From assembly GCA_963678705.1 (NCBI GenBank), contig OY783210.1, forward strand, positions 15,935,331 to 15,999,330: a stretch of DNA of 64,000 bases, in the 5' to 3' direction. The stretch is from Panorpa germanica. Taxonomy: Eukaryota > Arthropoda > Insecta > Mecoptera > Panorpidae. Below the pieces are notes generated by a model. That model was given only the letters and a program-made list of their open reading frames with translations, was not told the origin of the DNA and made no database searches. The position numbers and the translations under genes were made by a program. Positions 2,086 through 64,000 of the stretch are shown one piece after another (positions within the stretch are counted from its first letter, which is position 1; the number at the start of each line of letters is the position of its first letter).

Positions 2086-2161
2086 GGAAATTGTGAGATT
2101 TTTTAGTTTTGTAAAAATCCATCTCTTTAAATTTTATCAACGAAAGAAGGTTAAAAATCAA

Positions 2162-2365
2162 GAAAATTGTGAGATTTTAAAGTTTTGTAGAAATCCATTT
2201 CTTTAAATTTTATCAAAGAAAGAAGGTTTCTCTTGTCAAAAATTAAGTTTTTCGGTTTTTGTCTACTAAAACCTCGTATTTTAATGTAAGCACAAAGTAC
2301 AATAATTAAAATAAATCTTATAATAATAAAATACATTGGGTTGTATTCATTCATTAAAATCCGGC
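2162..2365 (+). repeat. Left direct repeat of the foldback-like element (about 204 bp)
   Basis: Starts GAAAATTGTGAGATTTTAAA and ends TTCATTAAAATCCGGC. It matches 6389-6593 in the same orientation with only scattered differences. The preceding 2086-2150 repeats the first 60 or so bases in a more diverged form. The right-hand break point, CCGGC, coincides with the point where the gag reading frame becomes unlike gag. Confidence 0.8.
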
Positions 2366-2654
2366 AGAAATTAGTGGAGTGGCCAAATTTCCAGCACCGA
2401 CGACACTGTCTAATTCTTTGTATATATGCTGAAACTGGGTAAAGGATACCCTGGAAGGCTATATATTCCGGGATCTTATCCCCGCTAAAGGATATTACGC
2501 ACTTCCAAGTAGGAGTCTTTTTGCCTTCTTCAATTCTATTAAATCTAATAAAATCGGTAATTTTTGGTGCCAACTGTCTACTATTTTTATTAAAGCCTAC
2601 TGCGTCATGTAGGAATACGTCATCCAGATCATCCGTCATGTAGGAATACGTCAT
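2363..2654 (-). pseudogene. Gag-like (ORF1) fragment of a non-LTR retrotransposon with CCHC zinc knuckle
   Basis: On the minus strand the open frame has VSAYIQRIRQCRRCWKFGH followed by STNFCR. The spacing C-x2-C-x4-H-x4-C is a retroviral-type zinc knuckle. The preceding WKCVISFSGDKIPEYIAF and the PVxxYxxRxRQC phrase are typical of ORF1 proteins of I/Jockey-type insect LINEs, which bind their RNA. Only about 90 residues remain. After the last Cys-Arg the frame runs into the left direct repeat, so all later knuckles and the reverse transcriptase are missing. A small duplication of GGAATACGTCATCC lies at its other edge. It is a captured remnant, not a working gene. Confidence 0.65.
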
Positions 2655-2656
2655 CC

Positions 2657-3870
2657 GCTAGGCTTTAAAGTAAATAACTGCTTCATTACATTTTAAATAT
2701 CCACGCGATTCTGGCTTTTATGCGAGCTTTTTTAAATTCATGGACTTTTTTATCCAAAGTTTTTTTTTGAATTTCTTGAAATTTTTTGATGCAGTTATGT
2801 TCGCTAGGCTTTAAAGTAAATAACTGCTTCATTACATTTTAAATATCCACGCGATTCTGGCTTTTATGCGACCTTTTTTAAATTCATGGACTTTTTTTTC
2901 TAAATTTTTTTTTGGATTTCTTGAAATTTTTTGATGCAGTTATGTTCGCTAGGCTTTAAAGTAAATAACTGCTTCATTACATTTTAAATATCCACGCGAT
3001 TCTGGCTTTTATGCGACCTTTTTTAAATTCATGGACTTTTTTATCCAAAATTTTTTTTTGGATTTCTTGAAATTTTTTGATGCAGTTATGTTCGCTAGGC
3101 TTTAAAGTAAATAACTGCTTCATTACATTTTAAATATCCACGCGATTCTGGCTTTTATACGACCTTTTTTAAATTCATGGACTTTTTTTTCTAAAATTTT
3201 TTCTTGGATTTCTTAAATTTTTTTGATGCAGTTATGTTCGCTAGGCTTTAAAATAAAGAACTGCTTCATTAGATTTTAAATATCCACGCGATTCTGGCTT
3301 TTATGCGACCTTTTTTAAATTCATGGACTTTTTTTTCTAAAATTTTTTCTTAGATTTCTTGAAATTTTTTGATGCAGTTATGTTCGCTAGGCTTTAAAAT
3401 AAAGAACTGCTTCATTACATTTTAAATATCCACGCGATTCTGGCTTTTATGCGACCTTTTTTAAATTCATGGACTTTTTTTTCTAAAATTTTTTTTTGGA
3501 TTTCTTGAAATTTTTTGATGCAGTTATGTTCGCTAGGCTTTAAAGTAAATAACTGCTTCATTACATTTTAAATATTCACGCGATTCTGGCTTTTATGCGA
3601 CCTTTTTTAAATTCATGGACTTTTTTTTCTAAAATTTTTTTTTGGATTTCTTGAAATTTTTTGATGCAGTTATGTTCGCTAGGCTTTTAAGTAAATAACT
3701 GCTTCATTACATTTTAAATATCCACGCGATTCTGGCTTTTATGCGACATTTTTTAAATTCATGGACTTTTTTTTCTAAAATTTTTTCTTGGATTTCTTGA
3801 AATTTTTTGATGCAGTTATGTTCGCTAGGCTTTAAAATAAAGAACTGCTTCATTAGATTTTAAATATCTA
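2657..3870 (+). repeat. Left array of 146-bp tandem repeats (about 8.3 copies)
   Basis: The phrase GCTAGGCTTTAAA recurs at 2657, 2803, 2948, 3094, 3240, 3386, 3532, 3678 and 3824, that is every 145-146 bases. Each unit holds a GC-richer core (TCCACGCGATTCTGGC) and long T-tracts. Copies starting at 3240, 3386 and 3824 share a sub-variant (AAATAAAGAACTGCTTCATTAGA or close to it). The array is the reverse complement of the one at 4688-6330. Confidence 0.95.
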
Positions 3871-4010
3871 CGCAGAAACTCAAAAAATTGCATTGCTCTT
3901 AAAATCATAAAAGTAAACCTTTTCATCATTTTTAACAAGATTATAGTCTTCTTTCTATATGGAGATTTAATATATTGATATATCATAAACTAAAATACTT
4001 ATTTAAAAAT
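3824..4010 (+). repeat. Left inner arm of the long inverted repeat
   Basis: This stretch continues the inverted repeat beyond the tandem array. GCATTGCTCTTAAAATCATA, AAGATTATAGTCTTCTTTC and TTTAATATATTGATATATCA each reappear as reverse complements in 4520-4695. Differences are few, so the duplication is recent or kept homogeneous. Confidence 0.85.
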
Positions 4011-4017
4011 TAATTAT

Positions 4018-4206
4018 AAATTTGAAATCAGCATTCAAAATTAAGTTAAAATACGTTATAAAATGACATATATTTTTCTTAAATTTTTATGAAAAGTAAC
4101 AAGAGTATAACCTTCTTACTTTTCATAAAAATTTAAGAAAAATATATGTCATTTTATAACGTATTTTAACTTAATTTTGAATGCTGATTTCAAATTTATA
4201 ATTCAT
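4018..4206 (+). repeat. Central hairpin A (near-perfect inverted repeat, about 85-base arms)
   Basis: The left arm begins near AATCAGCATTCAAAATTAAG, runs through TTTTTATGAAAAGTAA, and is followed after a loop of roughly 15 bases by its reverse complement ending CTTAATTTTGAATGCTGATT. The arms are almost perfect, so single strands would fold into a long stem. Confidence 0.88.
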
Positions 4207-4316
4207 TTTTTAGTAAGTACTTTTGTTTACGTGATATTTGCAATATAAAATCGAAATAAAATAAAACTTTAAACGTCTATTACTCATTAACCGCAAGAGG
4301 TAATTAAAAATGGATT

Positions 4317-4500
4317 TCAATTTTGGAATCAGCATACAAAACTACGTTTGAAAACATGTATCATACGTCAAAATAAATTTTGATTTTTTTAACAAAAGTA
4401 AGAAGGCTATAGCCTTCTTACTTTTCATGAAAATTGAAAAAAATAATTTGTTTATGTTTTAATGGTTTTTAACGTAGTTTTGAATGCTGATTCCAAATTT
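4317..4500 (+). repeat. Central hairpin B, a diverged copy of hairpin A
   Basis: Begins GGAATCAGCATACAAAACTA and ends TAGTTTTGAATGCTGATTCC. The tip is AGAAGGCTATAGCCTTCT, a perfect palindrome. The arms are less similar in the middle than those of hairpin A. Shared ends and tip show that A and B come from one ancestral hairpin. Confidence 0.82.
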
Positions 4501-4519
4501 GTTATTTATTTTTAAATAT

Positions 4520-4695
4520 GTATTTTAGTTTATGATATATCAATATATTAAATCTCCATATAGAAAGAAGACTATAATCTTGTTAAAAATGATGAAAAGG
4601 TTCACTTTTATGATTTTAAGAGCAATGCAATTTTTTGAGTTTCTGTGTAGATATTTAAAATCTAATGAAGCAGTTCTTTATTTTAAAGCCTAGCG
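4520..4695 (-). repeat. Right inner arm of the long inverted repeat
   Basis: Reverse complement of 3824-4010. It leads from the hairpin spacer into the right tandem array, whose first unit has the same sub-variant (TCTAATGAAGCAGTTCTTTA) as the last unit of the left array. The junction therefore predates the separate expansion of the two arrays. Confidence 0.85.
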
Positions 4696-6330
4696 AACAT
4701 AACTGCATCAAAACATTTCAAGAAATCAAACAAAAAATTTTAGAAAAAAAAGTCCATGAATTTAAAAAAGGTCGCATAAAAGCCAGAACCGCGTGGATAT
4801 TTAAAATGTAATGAAGCAGTTATTTACTTCAAAGCCTAGCGAACATAACTGCATTAAAAAATTTCAAGAAATCCAAAAAAAAATTGTAGAAAAAAAAGTC
4901 CATGAATTTAAAAAAGGTCGCATAAAAGCCAGAATCGCGTGGATATTTAAAATGTAATGAAGCAGTTATTTACTTTAAAGCCTAGCGAACATAACTGCAT
5001 CAAAAAATTTCAAGAAATCCAAAAAAAAATTTTAGAAAAAAAAGTCCATGAATTTAAAAAAGGTCGCATAAAAGCCAGAATCGCGTGGATATTTAAAATG
5101 TAATGAAGCAGTTATTTACTTTAAAGCCTAGCGAACATAACTGCATCAAAAAATTTCAAGAAATTCAAAAAAAAATTTTAGAAAAAAAAGTCCATGAATT
5201 TAAAAAAGGTCGCATAAAAGCCAGAATCGCGTGGATATTTAAAATGTAATGAAGCAGTTATTTACTTTAAAGCCTAGCGAACATAACTGCATCAAAAAAT
5301 TTCAAGAAAATCCAAAAAAAAATTTTAGAAAAAAAAGTCCATGAATTTAAAAAAGGTCGCATAAAAGCCAGAATCGCGTGGATATTTAAAATGTAATGAA
5401 GCAGTTATTTACTTTAAAGCCTAGCGAACATAACTGCATCAAATAATTTCAAGAAATTCAAAAAAAAATTTTAGAAAAAAAAGTCCATGAATTTAAAAAA
5501 GGTCGCATAAAAGCCAGAATCGCGTGGATATTTAAAATGTAATGAAGCAGTTATTTACTTTAAAGCCTAGCGAACATAACTGCATCAAAAAATTTCAAGA
5601 AATCCAAAAAAAAATTTTAGAAAAAAAAGTCCATGAATTTAAAAAAGGTCGCATAAAAGCCAGAATCGCGTGGATATTTAAAATGTAATGAAGCAGTTAT
5701 TTACTTTAAAGCCTAGCGAACATAACTGCATCAAAAAATTTCAAGAAATTAAAAAAAAAATTTTAGAAAAAAAAGTCCATGAATTTAAAAAAGGTCGCAT
5801 AAAAGCCAGAATCGCGTGGATATTTAAAATGTAATGAAGCAGTTATTTACTTTAAAGCCTAGCGAACATAACTGCATCAAAAAATTTCAAGAAATCAAAA
5901 AAAAAATTTTAGAAAAAAAAGTCCATGAATTTAAAAAAGGTCGCATAAAAGCCAGAATCGCGTGGATATTTAAAATGTAATGAAGCAGTTATTTACTTTA
6001 AAGCCTAGCGAACATAACTGCATCAAAAAATTTCAAGAAATCCAAAAAAAAATTTTAGATAAAAAAGTCCATGAATTTAAAAAAGGTCGCATAAAAGCCA
6101 GAATCGCGTGGATATTTAAAATGTAATGAAGCAGTTACTTACTTTAAAGCCTAGCGAACATAACTGCATCAAAAAATTTCAAGAAATCCAAAAAAAAATT
6201 TTAGAAAAAAAAGTCCATGAATTTAAAAAAGGTCGCATAAAAGCCAGAATCGCGTGGATATTTAAAATGTAATGAAGCAGTTATTTACTTTAAAGCCTAG
6301 CGAACATAACTGCATCAAAAAATTTAAAGA
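4688..6330 (-). repeat. Right array of 146-bp tandem repeats (about 11.2 copies)
   Basis: GCCTAGCGAACATAACTGC recurs at 4688, 4834, 4980, 5126, 5272, 5419, 5565, 5711, 5857, 6003, 6149 and 6295, a period of 146 with one 147. Units are more uniform than in the left array; most changes are in A-tract length. It ends near 6330, where TTTAAAGAAATCGAAATACG departs from the unit. Confidence 0.95.
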
Positions 6331-6388
6331 AATCGAAATACGATACGAATTTCAACGAAAGAAGACTATAATCTTGTTAAAAATGATG

Positions 6389-6593
6389 GAAATTGTGAGA
6401 TTTTAAAGTTTTGTAGAAATCCATTTATTTAAATTTTATCAACGAAAGAAGGTTATACTCTTGTTAAAAATGAAGTTTTTCGGTTTTTGTCTACTAAAAC
6501 CTCGTATTTTAATGTAGGCACAAAGTACAATAATTAAAATAAATCTTATAATAATAAAATACATTGGGTTGTATTCATTCATTAAAATCCGGC
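6389..6593 (+). repeat. Right direct repeat of the foldback-like element (about 205 bp)
   Basis: Same orientation and nearly the same sequence as 2162-2365, again ending TTCATTAAAATCCGGC. Just before it, GAAGACTATAATCTTGTTAA copies a phrase also found in the inner arms, so short pieces have been shuffled around the element. Like long terminal repeats it flanks the whole structure, but it lacks TG...CA ends. Confidence 0.8.
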
Positions 6594-7124
6594 TACGTAC
6601 GTTTTCTATTGAATTACTTTTGTTTGGATTATCCGTTTATGCTACCCTGATACAAAAAATATTGTTATTTTTTTTTTTATGAATTAAACGTTTATTCACG
6701 AAGTGGTTTGTTATTTCCACGAGGCTATACGAAGTATACGAGTTATATGTGTTGCCATTATTTCAGGCGTAATATTTTTAGTTTTTCGTTAATTTGTGAT
6801 ATATTTAATTGTTTTAGTTTAAATATTAATAAGTAAGTCTAAGAATAAAACTATGGTATTAGTTTATTTTGAAATAATAAAGACTGCTCTTAGTTGATTA
6901 CATTCAATGTTTTTATTTCTATAAAATACATTTACAAACTCTCTAAAAACAAATATAACAATTACATAGCAAAAACATTTACAGGTTTACATAAATGTAA
7001 CGTAACTATGTTTAGTAAAACATCAGTGACAAATATTCAAAGTTTATTGTTGAAATTAAAAATAAATTGAAAAGAATTGTTAAACAAAAATAGAGAATTT
7101 CGTTTTTGTACATTGATTAAGTAA
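6594..7124. other. Spacer between foldback-like element and alkaline phosphatase 3' end
   Basis: AT-rich DNA with no convincing ORF. It probably holds the end of the alkaline phosphatase transcript: TTTATT (AATAAA on the minus strand) also occurs at 7043-7048 and 6912-6917. Confidence 0.4.
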
Positions 7125-7332: not shown

Positions 7333-10300
7333 TTAATTGTTGCATGCTGTTAAGCCATTTCCAATGCAAGTTGCAAATGCCATTATGTGTGGTATAACAT
7401 TTTGTTCAAAGCTGCCTGTGCAAAGATGAGCCCAAGGTCCCGTGCAGAAAATACCAACATCATCTCCACCGTGTGTCTCCTGCAGTGCTGGAATGGTCGC
7501 CGGATACTGATAATTGTTGTCCCCTGAGCAAAAAGACAGGACCATTAGTTTTATTGCATTATTAAATGTAGTTAAATATTAAATTGAATAATACTTACTC
7601 ATGGGATCGGCTGTCATATTGTATCTGGAGCTATTTGTTGGTGTTTTGTAGCCTGGACCATTCGCATAAGATAAGGTAGAATATGGTAAGTTATCAACAT
7701 CTGAATTCATCGCAATCCCTAGAATATCAGATCCTCGTGGAGCGTATCCTAAACAAGTACAAATTTACCATGAAATTAAAGCAACACTTTATTAAATACT
7801 GCATTCGATGATAATGTCAATTTTATTGTACCTGACAAGCTCATGGTGTGTGCATGATCTGACGTCACAACAATAAGCGTGTCATCGCCTAACATCTCTG
7901 CAGCAAGTGCAACAGCTTCCGATAATTGTTCAGTTTCATCCAGAGCCTTTTTAGCAAGAGTGTCATGATGCGCATGATCAATTCGTCCACCTTCAATAAA
8001 CAAGACAAATCCCTTCTCTTCCTTGCTCAACATTTTAATCGCCGCGGCTGTTAGATCAGCTAAACTTGGTTCTTTTTCAGTATCACGATCTAAATTATAT
8101 TGAAGATGATCATCTTCAAATAATCCTAGTACATATTCTGTTTTTTCAACATCCAAATTAATTAAGCCTTCCTTATCATATATATATTTAGCTGGAACAC
8201 CACGTTGTTCTTTTTCTTGTAGCCATTTGGATATTAAATTAGCACCATCCTTTCTTTCTCCAAGTGTTCCTTCTTCATCAAGGAAGGACTCAGGAAGGAA
8301 TTTTTTGCGACCACCTCCCAAAATAACCTGAATACAAAATAAACAAATTATATCGTTGAAATGAGAAATTCTGTGTTCTGTGGAAAATTCTATAAATGTA
8401 TTTACTTTGAAGTTATTGCCTGGGGATTGGTTAATTAGTTGCCAAGCGATATCCCTGCATAGATTTGGATCCTGTCCTTCGAGTAATACATCGTTGTCAC
8501 TCTCCCAGTCTCTTTCAGCGGTGTGAGCGTAGGATCCACTAGGAGATGCATGAGTGATTCTAGTAGTAGTGACAATACCTGTGAATAAACATAGAAACTT
8601 AGCAAATATGTACTTTGTGTGTATTCCTAAAGAAGTATAAAAGTTACCTGTAGCTTTGCCAACGTTTTGAGCCCAGTCCATGATAGAATCGACATGGTGT
8701 GATGCATTTCTCATAGCTTCACAATCTCCTCTTGGGACATTTGCATTAACTCCAAGAGTAGCAGAGTTTGCTTTGATACCACACATATACGCCGTGCTAG
8801 AACAGGCTGAATCCGCTACTTGATGGTCCACACAATACGTCTGAAATGTTTAAATTAAAACAAAATAAAGTATTTGTAATGTAATAGAAAGGCATAATTA
8901 AAAATGTTATATCGATGTTCACAACCAATTATATATAGATGTTCTTTTTAATGAGTAGTAGAAATCTTTACTAAATCATACGTTTCCATATAAAAAATTT
9001 AAATTATTTGTATTATACCTTCGACAATCCTGTGTACGGGAACTTTTCAAATGATAAACTAAATTCTTCTCCAGCAAGACCTTGTTTTTGACCCATGTAT
9101 GTTCTAGCTGCAGCCAACGTTGGTATCGACATTCCATCACCAATAAACAAAATCACATTCTTTGCGATATTGGTGTTCTCTTTTCTTGCAAGTTTAGATT
9201 TCATTATACCCTGAGCATTTTCGCGCCAGTAGTTACTCGATAATTCCAAGCTTTCACTGCTGATAGCGCGGCGTACTCGGTAATGCTTGGGATGCATGTG
9301 GTTTTCTAAAATAGATATAAATTTAGATCAATGATACAACATATTAGTACAATTTAAAAGATTTACTCCTTTTAATTCATGCATTATGTATTTTTGTATG
9401 CTTTCGATACGTGTATACGAAGTTGTTATTATTACTGTTTATAATTCAACAGGCATTGTGAACTTGACAGCTTCAATGTTTATTTAATACAACGACTCCC
9501 AAACATATCCTTGTAATGGTTTTATTAATATGTGCTAATTACTGCATTAATTGTTTTATTATACTTTTCATACACCGTTATCGACACGTTATAAAGTAGG
9601 GTTAAAACCAATGTCATAGATTTCATTATATTCTCAATCGCCATTGCAAAACTGACTTAGCGTTTAGTACTGAGCCTGGCAAGTAGTTAACACTTAGAAT
9701 TTATTGAATGAAGCGTGTAATATAAGGAAAGTAGTAATTTAGTGGATTTATCTTGGCGCCCGATGCGACTGCATCTGTTACATGCCTGTCGAACCGGCTC
9801 TGCATACAGTTTGATCAAGGTTAACTGTACACTGCATTGAACGCACTCTTTTCTTGAAAATGATTTACCATGTACAATTGTTTTCTAGCACTTGGCTCGT
9901 GCTGTACTTTGCTGTCAGCGGTTCACTGTCCAGTGTGTCCGCTGTTCGCAGTCGTTCAAGGACTGATCAACTTTCAATATGCAATTAGGCAATGTTTACA
10001 CAATATTTAACAGGTTGTTAGGTTTCATTGATTAGGAAAAGTCAAACAAGACGCATAAATGAGTAAATTAAACGACTTACAGTATTCGTTTAGAGATAAA
10101 AAGGAGTTGTTTTAATAACTTGTAATAATGCGGCCAGAGTTGCCAACTTTCCGAAATTCCAGGAAAAGAAAAAACGTAAAAAATTAATCTCGACATTATC
10201 AGACGCAAAATTCTATTGAATGTGAGCGACAGTATAAACGCGTTTGCAAAATTTAACTCGAAAGAGTTACAATTTACTCAGGTGATTTAATATTCTTACC

Positions 10301-19179: not shown

Positions 19180-19634
19180 GCGGCCTTAGCCATTGCGAGG
19201 CCCCGGGCAGCAGATCTTTGAGAGGCCCCGGGCGGCAGAACTTTGCGAGGCCCCGGGCAGCAGATCTCTGCGAGGCCCCTGGCGGCAGAACTTTGCGAGG
19301 CCTGGGGGCGGCAGATCTTTGCGAGGCAGTTGGTCTTTGTATAATTTATGTAAATTGTAAGGAGGAATTTTTGATGATAATTGACGAGAAATAAAATTTT
19401 TTATTGGAAGATTTATGAAAGTTAACAAGCACAAAGATGACAAATATTAATTTGATAAACTAAGGTACATGAATACCTTAAAAGAAGACGCAGTGATTTT
19501 AGTGGGATTTCTAAAGAGCGAGGCGCGAGATTCAAATACATATATAATAATGAATTTTTCTACTTGGGTTGTTGTGCGAGAATGCGATGCCCCTACAAGC
19601 GCGAGGCCCCGACCGATTGCCTAGCTTGCCCCTC
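19180..19634 (+). mobile_element. Decayed hAT-like element fragment (GCGGCCTTAGCCATTGCGAGG end)
   Basis: The left part, GCGGCCTTAGCCATTG, and the inner region (TGACGAGAAATA, GAAAGTTAACAAGCAC, GGGATTTCTAAAGAGCGAGG, GGTTGTTGTGCGAGAATGCG) match the opposite strand at 41622-41966. A GGGGCGGCCTTAG end is common in hAT-type elements; this superfamily call is inference. A third end is at 56186-56211. No intact transposase remains. Confidence 0.55.
19197..19322 (+). repeat. GC-rich minisatellite, five copies of a 25-bp unit
   Basis: Unit close to GAGGCCCCGGGCGGCAGAAC plus TTTGC, repeated about five times with alternation of CAGCAGATCT and CGGCAGAACT. It is the GC-richest spot of the window. It sits just inside the hAT-like end and seems to come from duplication of the subterminal sequence GCGAGGCCCC. 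Confidence 0.85.
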
Positions 19635-41621: not shown

Positions 41622-41966
41622 TTGGGGGGTGGTAAGCAGGACAACCGCCCAGTGCCTCGCATTCTCGCACAACAACCCAAATAGAAAAATACTTACTATA
41701 TATGATTTTGAATCTCGCGCCTCGCTCTTTAGAAATCCCACTTGAATCACTGCGTATATTTTTTAAGGCATTCATGTGCCTTAGTTTATCATCATTAATA
41801 TTTGTCATTTTTGTGCTTGTTAACTTTCATAAATCTTCCAATATAAAATTATATTTCTCGTCAATTATCATTAAAAATACTTACTTACAATTTACATAAA
41901 TTATACAAAGAATAAGTACCTCGCAAAAATCTGCTAACCGGGGCCTTACAATGGCTAAGGCCGCCC
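41622..41966 (-). mobile_element. Second hAT-like element fragment
   Basis: Minus strand starts GGGCGGCCTTAGCCATTG at 41966 and follows 19180-19634, without the 25-bp minisatellite expansion. The minus-strand open frame TNINDDKLRHMNALKN to ERGARFKIIYSKYFSIW may be part of the former transposase coding region; it is broken in the 19-kb copy. Confidence 0.55.
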
Positions 41967-63249: not shown

Positions 63250-64000
63250 ATTCATAGCAATATTATTAAATTCTGAACCCGCTGTTTCTTTATGTCTTAT
63301 CGCTAGTCTAAGCTCCCACTTCTGAGTTTCTCCACCCAGATCTGGGTTTTTTAATTATCATTGCTGTGGATAATAATTGGTTGGTAGGTTTTTTCTGGGT
63401 TTATTTAAAATTTGTTGATAGATGCACTGTATATATGATGAAAGTAGAAAATTTTGCATACACAATTTGACATAAGAACAAAAAGTCATTTCTTTTAATT
63501 GTTATCATAAAAAATCAAAAACATTATTGTTATTTTTAGCATAAAGCAAATTAAAATTAGGAAAAACCAAAAAGGAAAATTATCAGTTCCCAATTGATAA
63601 GGTTTCTTTCCGTCCTGAATAAGGAAATATTTGAAATTTCTAAAGTATTACAATAAAATGTTTAATTGCATAAGAGGAAAACAATTTACAAACAATATAA
63701 ACAAAAACTAGGAAAGATTAGTATCTACGTTTAAAAACAATAAGGATACATTTGGTGTTTCTAAAACATTGCAATAAAAATTAAAATTGGATACCAGGAA
63801 AACAATTAACTAACAGTATAAACAAAAACAAGTATAGATAATTGTTTGCAATTAAAAACACTTTTGATGCTTTATTTTGCATGTCGTGTTATATTCGTAC
63901 ATCAATTGCCATTACTTTAAAATTCCGCAGTTTATTTTTCTACACGCATAAAATCTCTTATTTAAAAATAAGAATAGAACAAATATGTAACTTAGGTAAA
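63250..64000. other. AT-rich window end without a recognised gene
   Basis: Includes one copy of the AGATCTGGGTTTTTT repeat (about 63318-63372) and two loosely similar stretches near 63650-63720 and 63765-63835 (TTACAATAAAA...GGAAAACAATT...AACAATATAAACAAAAAC), spaced about 115 bases, a probable local duplication. Confidence 0.35.

Follow-up and report, generated by a model that had tools for sequence, protein, structure and literature searches.

Inverted arrays of a 146-bp satellite as probable cargo of a dispersed non-autonomous Helitron family in Panorpa germanica

A stretch of 64,000 nucleotides from the genome of the mecopteran Panorpa germanica (contig OY783210.1 of assembly GCA_963678705.1, positions 15,935,331 to 15,999,330 of the forward strand; hereafter the window) carries at 2086-6593 two arrays of one 146-bp satellite unit, facing each other across a palindromic core. 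These inverted arrays and their core are probably carried as cargo by non-autonomous Helitrons of a dispersed family, and the copy in the window is most likely a dead internal fragment of that family. The left array (2656-3873, forward strand) and the right array (4647-6338, reverse strand) are both directed at the core, which occupies 3874-4646. Tandem Repeats Finder gives a period of 146 for each, with 8.3 copies and 96% matches on the left, and 11.6 copies and 97% matches on the right, where it places the array at 4650-6338. In self-BLAST, 2656-3873 aligns in inverted orientation with 6156-4937 at 97.2%, and a single inverted self-match of 93.4% spans 2656-5864, running straight through the core, in which a nested hairpin can be seen by eye near 4022-4200. 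An inverted-repeat search of the window agrees with self-BLAST, returning arms of 963 nt that are 97% complementary. The lengths and identities of these array and repeat matches are far beyond chance, although no shuffled control was made for the window. No open reading frame (ORF) of at least 120 aa lies within the arrays and core. An earlier sequence-only reading of this stretch had described two opposed arrays of a 146-bp unit joined by a folded spacer, and both parts of that description are confirmed.

But is this arrangement an accident of one locus? A 28-base motif of the unit occurs at 7,024 places in the genome with up to three mismatches, split almost evenly between forward (3,482) and reverse (3,542), and a reversed-pattern control found none. 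Another 20 loci were retrieved, chosen among the best genome matches to window positions 2086-3200. At 19 of these the units on either side are directed inward, towards a core; the exception, L028, has a single unit orientation in the 7.5 kb fetched. The 100 exact unit matches listed tell a similar story when counted by eye, as 10 of their 11 two-strand clusters (one being L017) run plus then minus, the remaining one, on C3 near 3.30 Mb, running minus then plus. A search with the core gave 147 genome matches, with the best 40 of 1,158 first-look candidates scored, and the closest other core among the matches listed is 97% identical (C7:14405620). Since the mirror arrangement recurs at 19 of the 20 other loci, the structure in the window is not a local assembly artefact, which had been named as one way in which the sequence-only reading could fail. 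A one-off inversion of a satellite, offered there as an alternative, is excluded by the same recurrence, and the proposed fold-back plan, shared by a family dispersed over the genome, is supported.

What, then, are the ends of such an element? The flanks outside the arrays contain two recurrent ends that differ from each other, here called the 5′ head (A) and the 3′ tail (B). The head begins TCCTATATTATAATG, a motif found with up to four errors in 22 of the 26 head flanks examined, and 18 of these 22 heads start with TC. It extends about 450 bp outward in L042 and stops sharply there at TCCTATATTATAATGTTCC. The tail ends in GACGGGCCGAACAGCTAG, in short CGAACAGCTAG; its terminus is exactly CTAG in 20 of 25 cases and fits CTRR in 21, and the next base is T in 24. 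Read in one direction, the element therefore runs from TCCTATATT through array, core and inverted array to GTTGTCTTGCGACGGGCCGAACAGCTAG. A genome search with the tail gave 68 matches, and all 20 tail loci fetched have a unit array on the inner side, at a distance of up to about 130 bp in 19 of them and of about 450 bp in L037. In six of the 20 loci chosen for similarity to the window (L014, L016, L017, L018, L022 and L026), the main arrays have a head on one side and a tail on the other, and so have the arrays of L095 and L042. A full copy would thus consist of a 5′ TCCTATATTATAATG head (about 450 bp in L042), an array, the palindromic core, the array inverted and a tail of about 120 bp leading to the 3′ GACGGGCCGAACAGCTAG. 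Counted over the whole genome, the 3′ end occurs at 156 places and the 5′ end at 1,766, with none in the controls; as the head is so much commoner than the tail, it is probably shared with other Helitrons. Some tails and heads keep close company. At C19:10974102-10985051, three copies of the 3′ end, spaced by about 5-6 kb and all facing one way, share the same flank; the elements may stand in tandem, or the stretch may have been duplicated locally. In L079 and L075 the head directly follows CTAG, which looks like Helitrons abutting tail to head; in L079 this CTAG is preceded by the 5-bp hairpin of what appears to be another Helitron's 3′ end.

The insertion site can be examined where filled and empty copies of the same host sequence exist. 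The 5′ flanks of L016, L076, L077, L078 and L083 lie in the same dispersed repeat as 15 of the 25 3′ flanks, and joining the two flanks predicts an uninterrupted sequence ...CATATA|TAGTAATAAATTG... When up to two mismatches are allowed, a 24-base pattern across this joint has 109 places in the genome (none exact among those listed), and its reversed control has none. The flanks of L016 match three uninterrupted copies (L097-L099) across the junction with neither duplication nor loss, so that in this comparison of one filled with three empty copies the insertion point lies between A and T and no target duplication was made. With 15 of 25 3′ ends in one dispersed repeat, the number of independent 3′ sites is roughly ten; the repeat may be a preferred target, or one filled copy may have spread together with its host repeat. 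Could the whole family have spread in that passive way, as a chromosomal satellite that was inverted once on itself and then carried around by segmental duplication, with no transposition at all? Recognisable ends are missing at eight of the 20 loci and long flanks are common to some of them (L020 and L025), as such a history would have it, but sharp common ends amid unrelated flanks and an exact empty site argue against it for copies with ends, and we regard it as a rather improbable account. The dispersed repeat in which the 15 3′ ends lie is also represented, uninterrupted, by two copies in the window itself, at 41628-41774 (reverse strand) and 19470-19593 (forward strand). Near the latter, Tandem Repeats Finder reports an array of a GC-rich 25-bp unit, TTGCGAGGCCCCGGGCGGCAGATCT, at 19193-19327, and a GCGAGGCCCCGGGCGG motif is common to both by eye.

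Canonical Helitrons have a 5′ TC and a 3′ CTRR, insert between A and T without target duplication, and are further recognised by a palindrome of 16-20 nt about 11 nt before the 3′ end, as set out in PMC4067079. The present family resembles them in its 5′ TC (18 of 22), its 3′ CTAG (20 of 25), its insertion between A and T and the lack of a target duplication. Two different ends of Helitron type, together with this mode of insertion, lead us to read the family as non-autonomous Helitrons. Like other non-autonomous canonical Helitrons, it has no ORF of 120 aa or more in the arrays and core of the window copy and shares its genome with Helitrons that encode Rep/helicase. Transposition of the family copies would be of the rolling-circle type, with a Rep/helicase supplied in trans by such a resident element. 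Candidates are abundant: at least 150 matches to Helitron_like_N were obtained (the best 150 of 893 candidates, all listed above the cut-off), many of them in open frames that are 1,119 residues long, and a few in frames of about 1,486. One of these loci, L096, encodes a Rep/helicase of 1119 residues with Helitron_like_N and PIF1 domains. Unlike in canonical Helitrons, two opposed satellite arrays around a palindromic core make up most of the element's length, and the 3′ hairpin is weak. It is therefore best read as a fold-back, satellite-carrying, non-autonomous variant of canonical Helitrons.

Two published systems come closer in cargo or in shape. Cg_HINE from the Pacific oyster belongs to the HINE/DINE-1 elements, which are non-autonomous Helentrons with central tandem repeats, and carries satellite-like arrays between its end modules, invariably in one orientation, with TT as the suggested insertion site (PMC7492417). 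Helentrons of this group are also characterised by subterminal inverted repeats. HINE/DINE-1 elements are the closest in cargo, as rolling-circle type elements in which a satellite-like array lies between the modules of the two ends; they differ in that the arrays of the present family are inverted (19 of 20 loci) and its insertions fall between A and T, not at TT. Satellite arrays in rolling-circle elements are already known, and in the closest published case examined they invariably have one orientation. Among the papers listed by searches of the open-licence PMC literature, none was recognised as describing inverted satellite arrays inside a Helitron. The closest in shape is Tetris, a fold-back transposon of Drosophila virilis with tandem repeats of about 220 bp in inverted arms and a middle domain; its description reports terminal inverted repeats and target duplications of 8-9 bp in its three complete copies (PMC4079207).

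Is the family then a true fold-back DNA transposon of the Foldback/Galileo/Tetris kind, with tandem repeats in long terminal inverted repeats and a cut-and-paste transposase? The sequence-only reading had likened it to Foldback and Galileo, and the internal plan, tandem repeats in inverted arms around a centre, is the same as that of Tetris in the account just cited. Inverted flanks also exist outside the arrays, of 320 bp at 96% in L012, about 480 bp at 84% in L015, about 180 bp at 81% in L019, about 240 bp at 88% in L029 and about 2 kb at 97% in L020 and L025. Nevertheless, wherever the ends of a copy can be defined they are two different ends, of Helitron type and placed between A and T; the single filled and empty comparison has no target duplication, whereas Tetris has both terminal inverted repeats and duplications; and in L019 and L029 the inverted flanks consist of the Helitron head on both sides. 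The Foldback/Galileo plan is therefore not supported, and a cut-and-paste fold-back transposon seems an unlikely explanation. No tail was detected in L019 and L029, which look as though one arm had taken the place of the other end. In L020 and L025 the arrays sit inside larger palindromes, whose outer inverted arms of about 2 kb (97%) reach an end of the fetched stretch.

Several observations weigh against the reading of the family as Helitrons. The copy in the window has neither Helitron end. Among the 20 loci, which were selected for the survey of ends by their similarity to the window, eight have neither end (L011, L012, L020, L021, L023, L025, L027 and L028; the match of L011 in the head and tail search falls within its array, and the locus is counted as one without ends), three have head fragments only (L013, L015 and L030), one has a tail alone (L024) and two have the head on both sides (L019 and L029). 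Of the six whose arrays lie between a head and a tail, L016 and L018 alone include the outermost bases of the head. So many loci without both ends leave room for another vehicle for the arrays, and the inverted outer flanks at L012, L015, L020 and L025 could reflect a second, truly fold-back vehicle or the later growth of palindromes. The ends themselves are not uniform, as L042 begins with TA and L016 with TG instead of TC, and an A precedes the head in just 14 of the 22 matched cases. Folded with RNA parameters, the 3′ hairpin region forms an imperfect stem with G-U pairs at the right place; as DNA, however, its fold does not surpass those of its shuffles (z = +0.61, with 145 of 200 folding at least as well). 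The 3′ hairpin of the Rep/helicase Helitron L096 is also weak as DNA (z = -0.27). This L096 was considered as the autonomous partner and rejected, its own ends being alike in type but not identical to those of the family. Arm-to-arm homogenisation, likewise tried, was not borne out, the cross-arm median being smaller than the distance between the locus and the closest of the others in just one of 20 loci.

In the window, the distance between array units is 0.023 within an arm and 0.027 across arms, and between loci it is 0.086 on average; majority variants private to a locus were absent from the five loci inspected. Mirror symmetry of the units across the core reached p < 0.05 in six of 19 tested loci (uncorrected for 19 tests), and the lengths of the two arms are correlated over 20 loci with rho 0.44 and p 0.05. 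Of 21 loci, the window is tied with two others as the closest to the consensus unit, and its arrays hence look young, which is not a dating.

Do these elements form a lineage of their own? The sequence-only reading had entertained a new element class or lineage. A new lineage it may be; copies with visible ends show Helitron-type ends. A bolder and less likely reading is a separate lineage of fold-back Helitrons, maintained through about 150 copies that have a 3′ end, in which the single-stranded intermediate would form a hairpin of a kilobase and the inverted cargo would be either tolerated or selected (for strand protection, second-strand priming or double-stranded RNA). To judge from the complementarity of the array arms, they are a possible source of double-stranded RNA. 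How is a strand that folds back on itself over a kilobase copied by a rolling-circle mechanism? With 156 places for the 3′ end and 7,024 for the unit motif, the family makes this question testable in a single genome. It also reveals a route by which an inverted satellite could be dispersed by a Helitron.

The window copy is bordered in an unusual manner. Same-orientation repeats of about 215 bp, put at about 205 bp by the sequence-only reading and confirmed here, frame it at 2150-2365 and 6376-6593 (both forward strand; 95.4% identity, by self-BLAST and, for the right one, genome search as well). Each starts with a satellite-like part of about 87 bp, followed by about 120 bp private to this locus among the matches listed. 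A partial extra copy of the satellite-like start precedes the left repeat at 2086-2153 (forward strand; 92.6% to 6388-6455), and self-BLAST pairs 2076-2152 with 2151-2228 at 88%. Are these repeats the ends of the element? When the host genome (464 Mb in 249 contigs) was searched with 6380-6593, 315 matches resulted; among those listed, two are full length, and both belong to this locus. The search scored the best candidates and skipped very common words; any further copy of full length would have come close to the head of the ranking. With the exception of the partial copy next to the left repeat, the remaining matches listed are on other contigs and fall within bases 1-96 of the query, where the first 94 bases or so resemble a satellite of about 87 bp. 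This satellite, akin also to parts of the core, is found among the listed matches mostly on C15 and C1, and on C9 and others too; in L024 (2424-3244) an 87-bp array is situated within the core. The framing repeats were accordingly rejected as element ends, and the earlier proposal that they bound the element at 2086-6593 is not supported; nor was a second copy with the same boundaries seen, since the other fetched loci have different flanks.

The inner junctions are a patchwork. Directly inside the left repeat lies a scrap of a young non-long-terminal-repeat (non-LTR) retroelement (2365-2633, reverse strand, 269 bp), which has at least 39 other places in the genome at 97-99%; it is cut on both sides, as another copy aligned with it, L052, goes on beyond both of its break points. 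Its ORF, recognised by eye from a zinc-knuckle motif, we take to be gag-like; the ORF that covers the scrap in the window had no match in Pfam. Between scrap and array, 23 bp of filler (2634-2656, forward strand) are a 100% copy of 2603-2625, and on the other side a junction filler (6339-6375) precedes the right repeat, with 6357-6392 97% identical to 36 bp from the core (4563-4598). Short templated copies at patchwork junctions, combined with a duplicated flank, point to error-prone break repair, and the framing repeats are probably a repair scar and not part of the element. A staggered break would have been repaired by error-prone template switching that took in a piece of a satellite-carrying Helitron, and this repair would have produced the duplicated flank of about 215 bp as well as the templated filler of 23 bp and the scrap of retroelement. 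A mobile unit comprising all of 2086-6593 and bounded by direct repeats of about 205 bp, either LTR-like or composite, would account for the flanking repeats, but given that their two full-length genome matches among those listed are both local, that a retroelement scrap cut on both sides sits immediately inside the left one, and that flanks differ at the other fetched loci, we consider such a unit extremely improbable. The locus is also an example of a break-repair scar that mimics the ends of an element.

Elsewhere in the window, exons at 7776-8831 (reverse strand), recognised by eye from the ORF, presumably belong to a gene resembling alkaline phosphatase. A two-copy tandem repeat of 121 bp with 77% matches was detected by Tandem Repeats Finder at 63618-63860.

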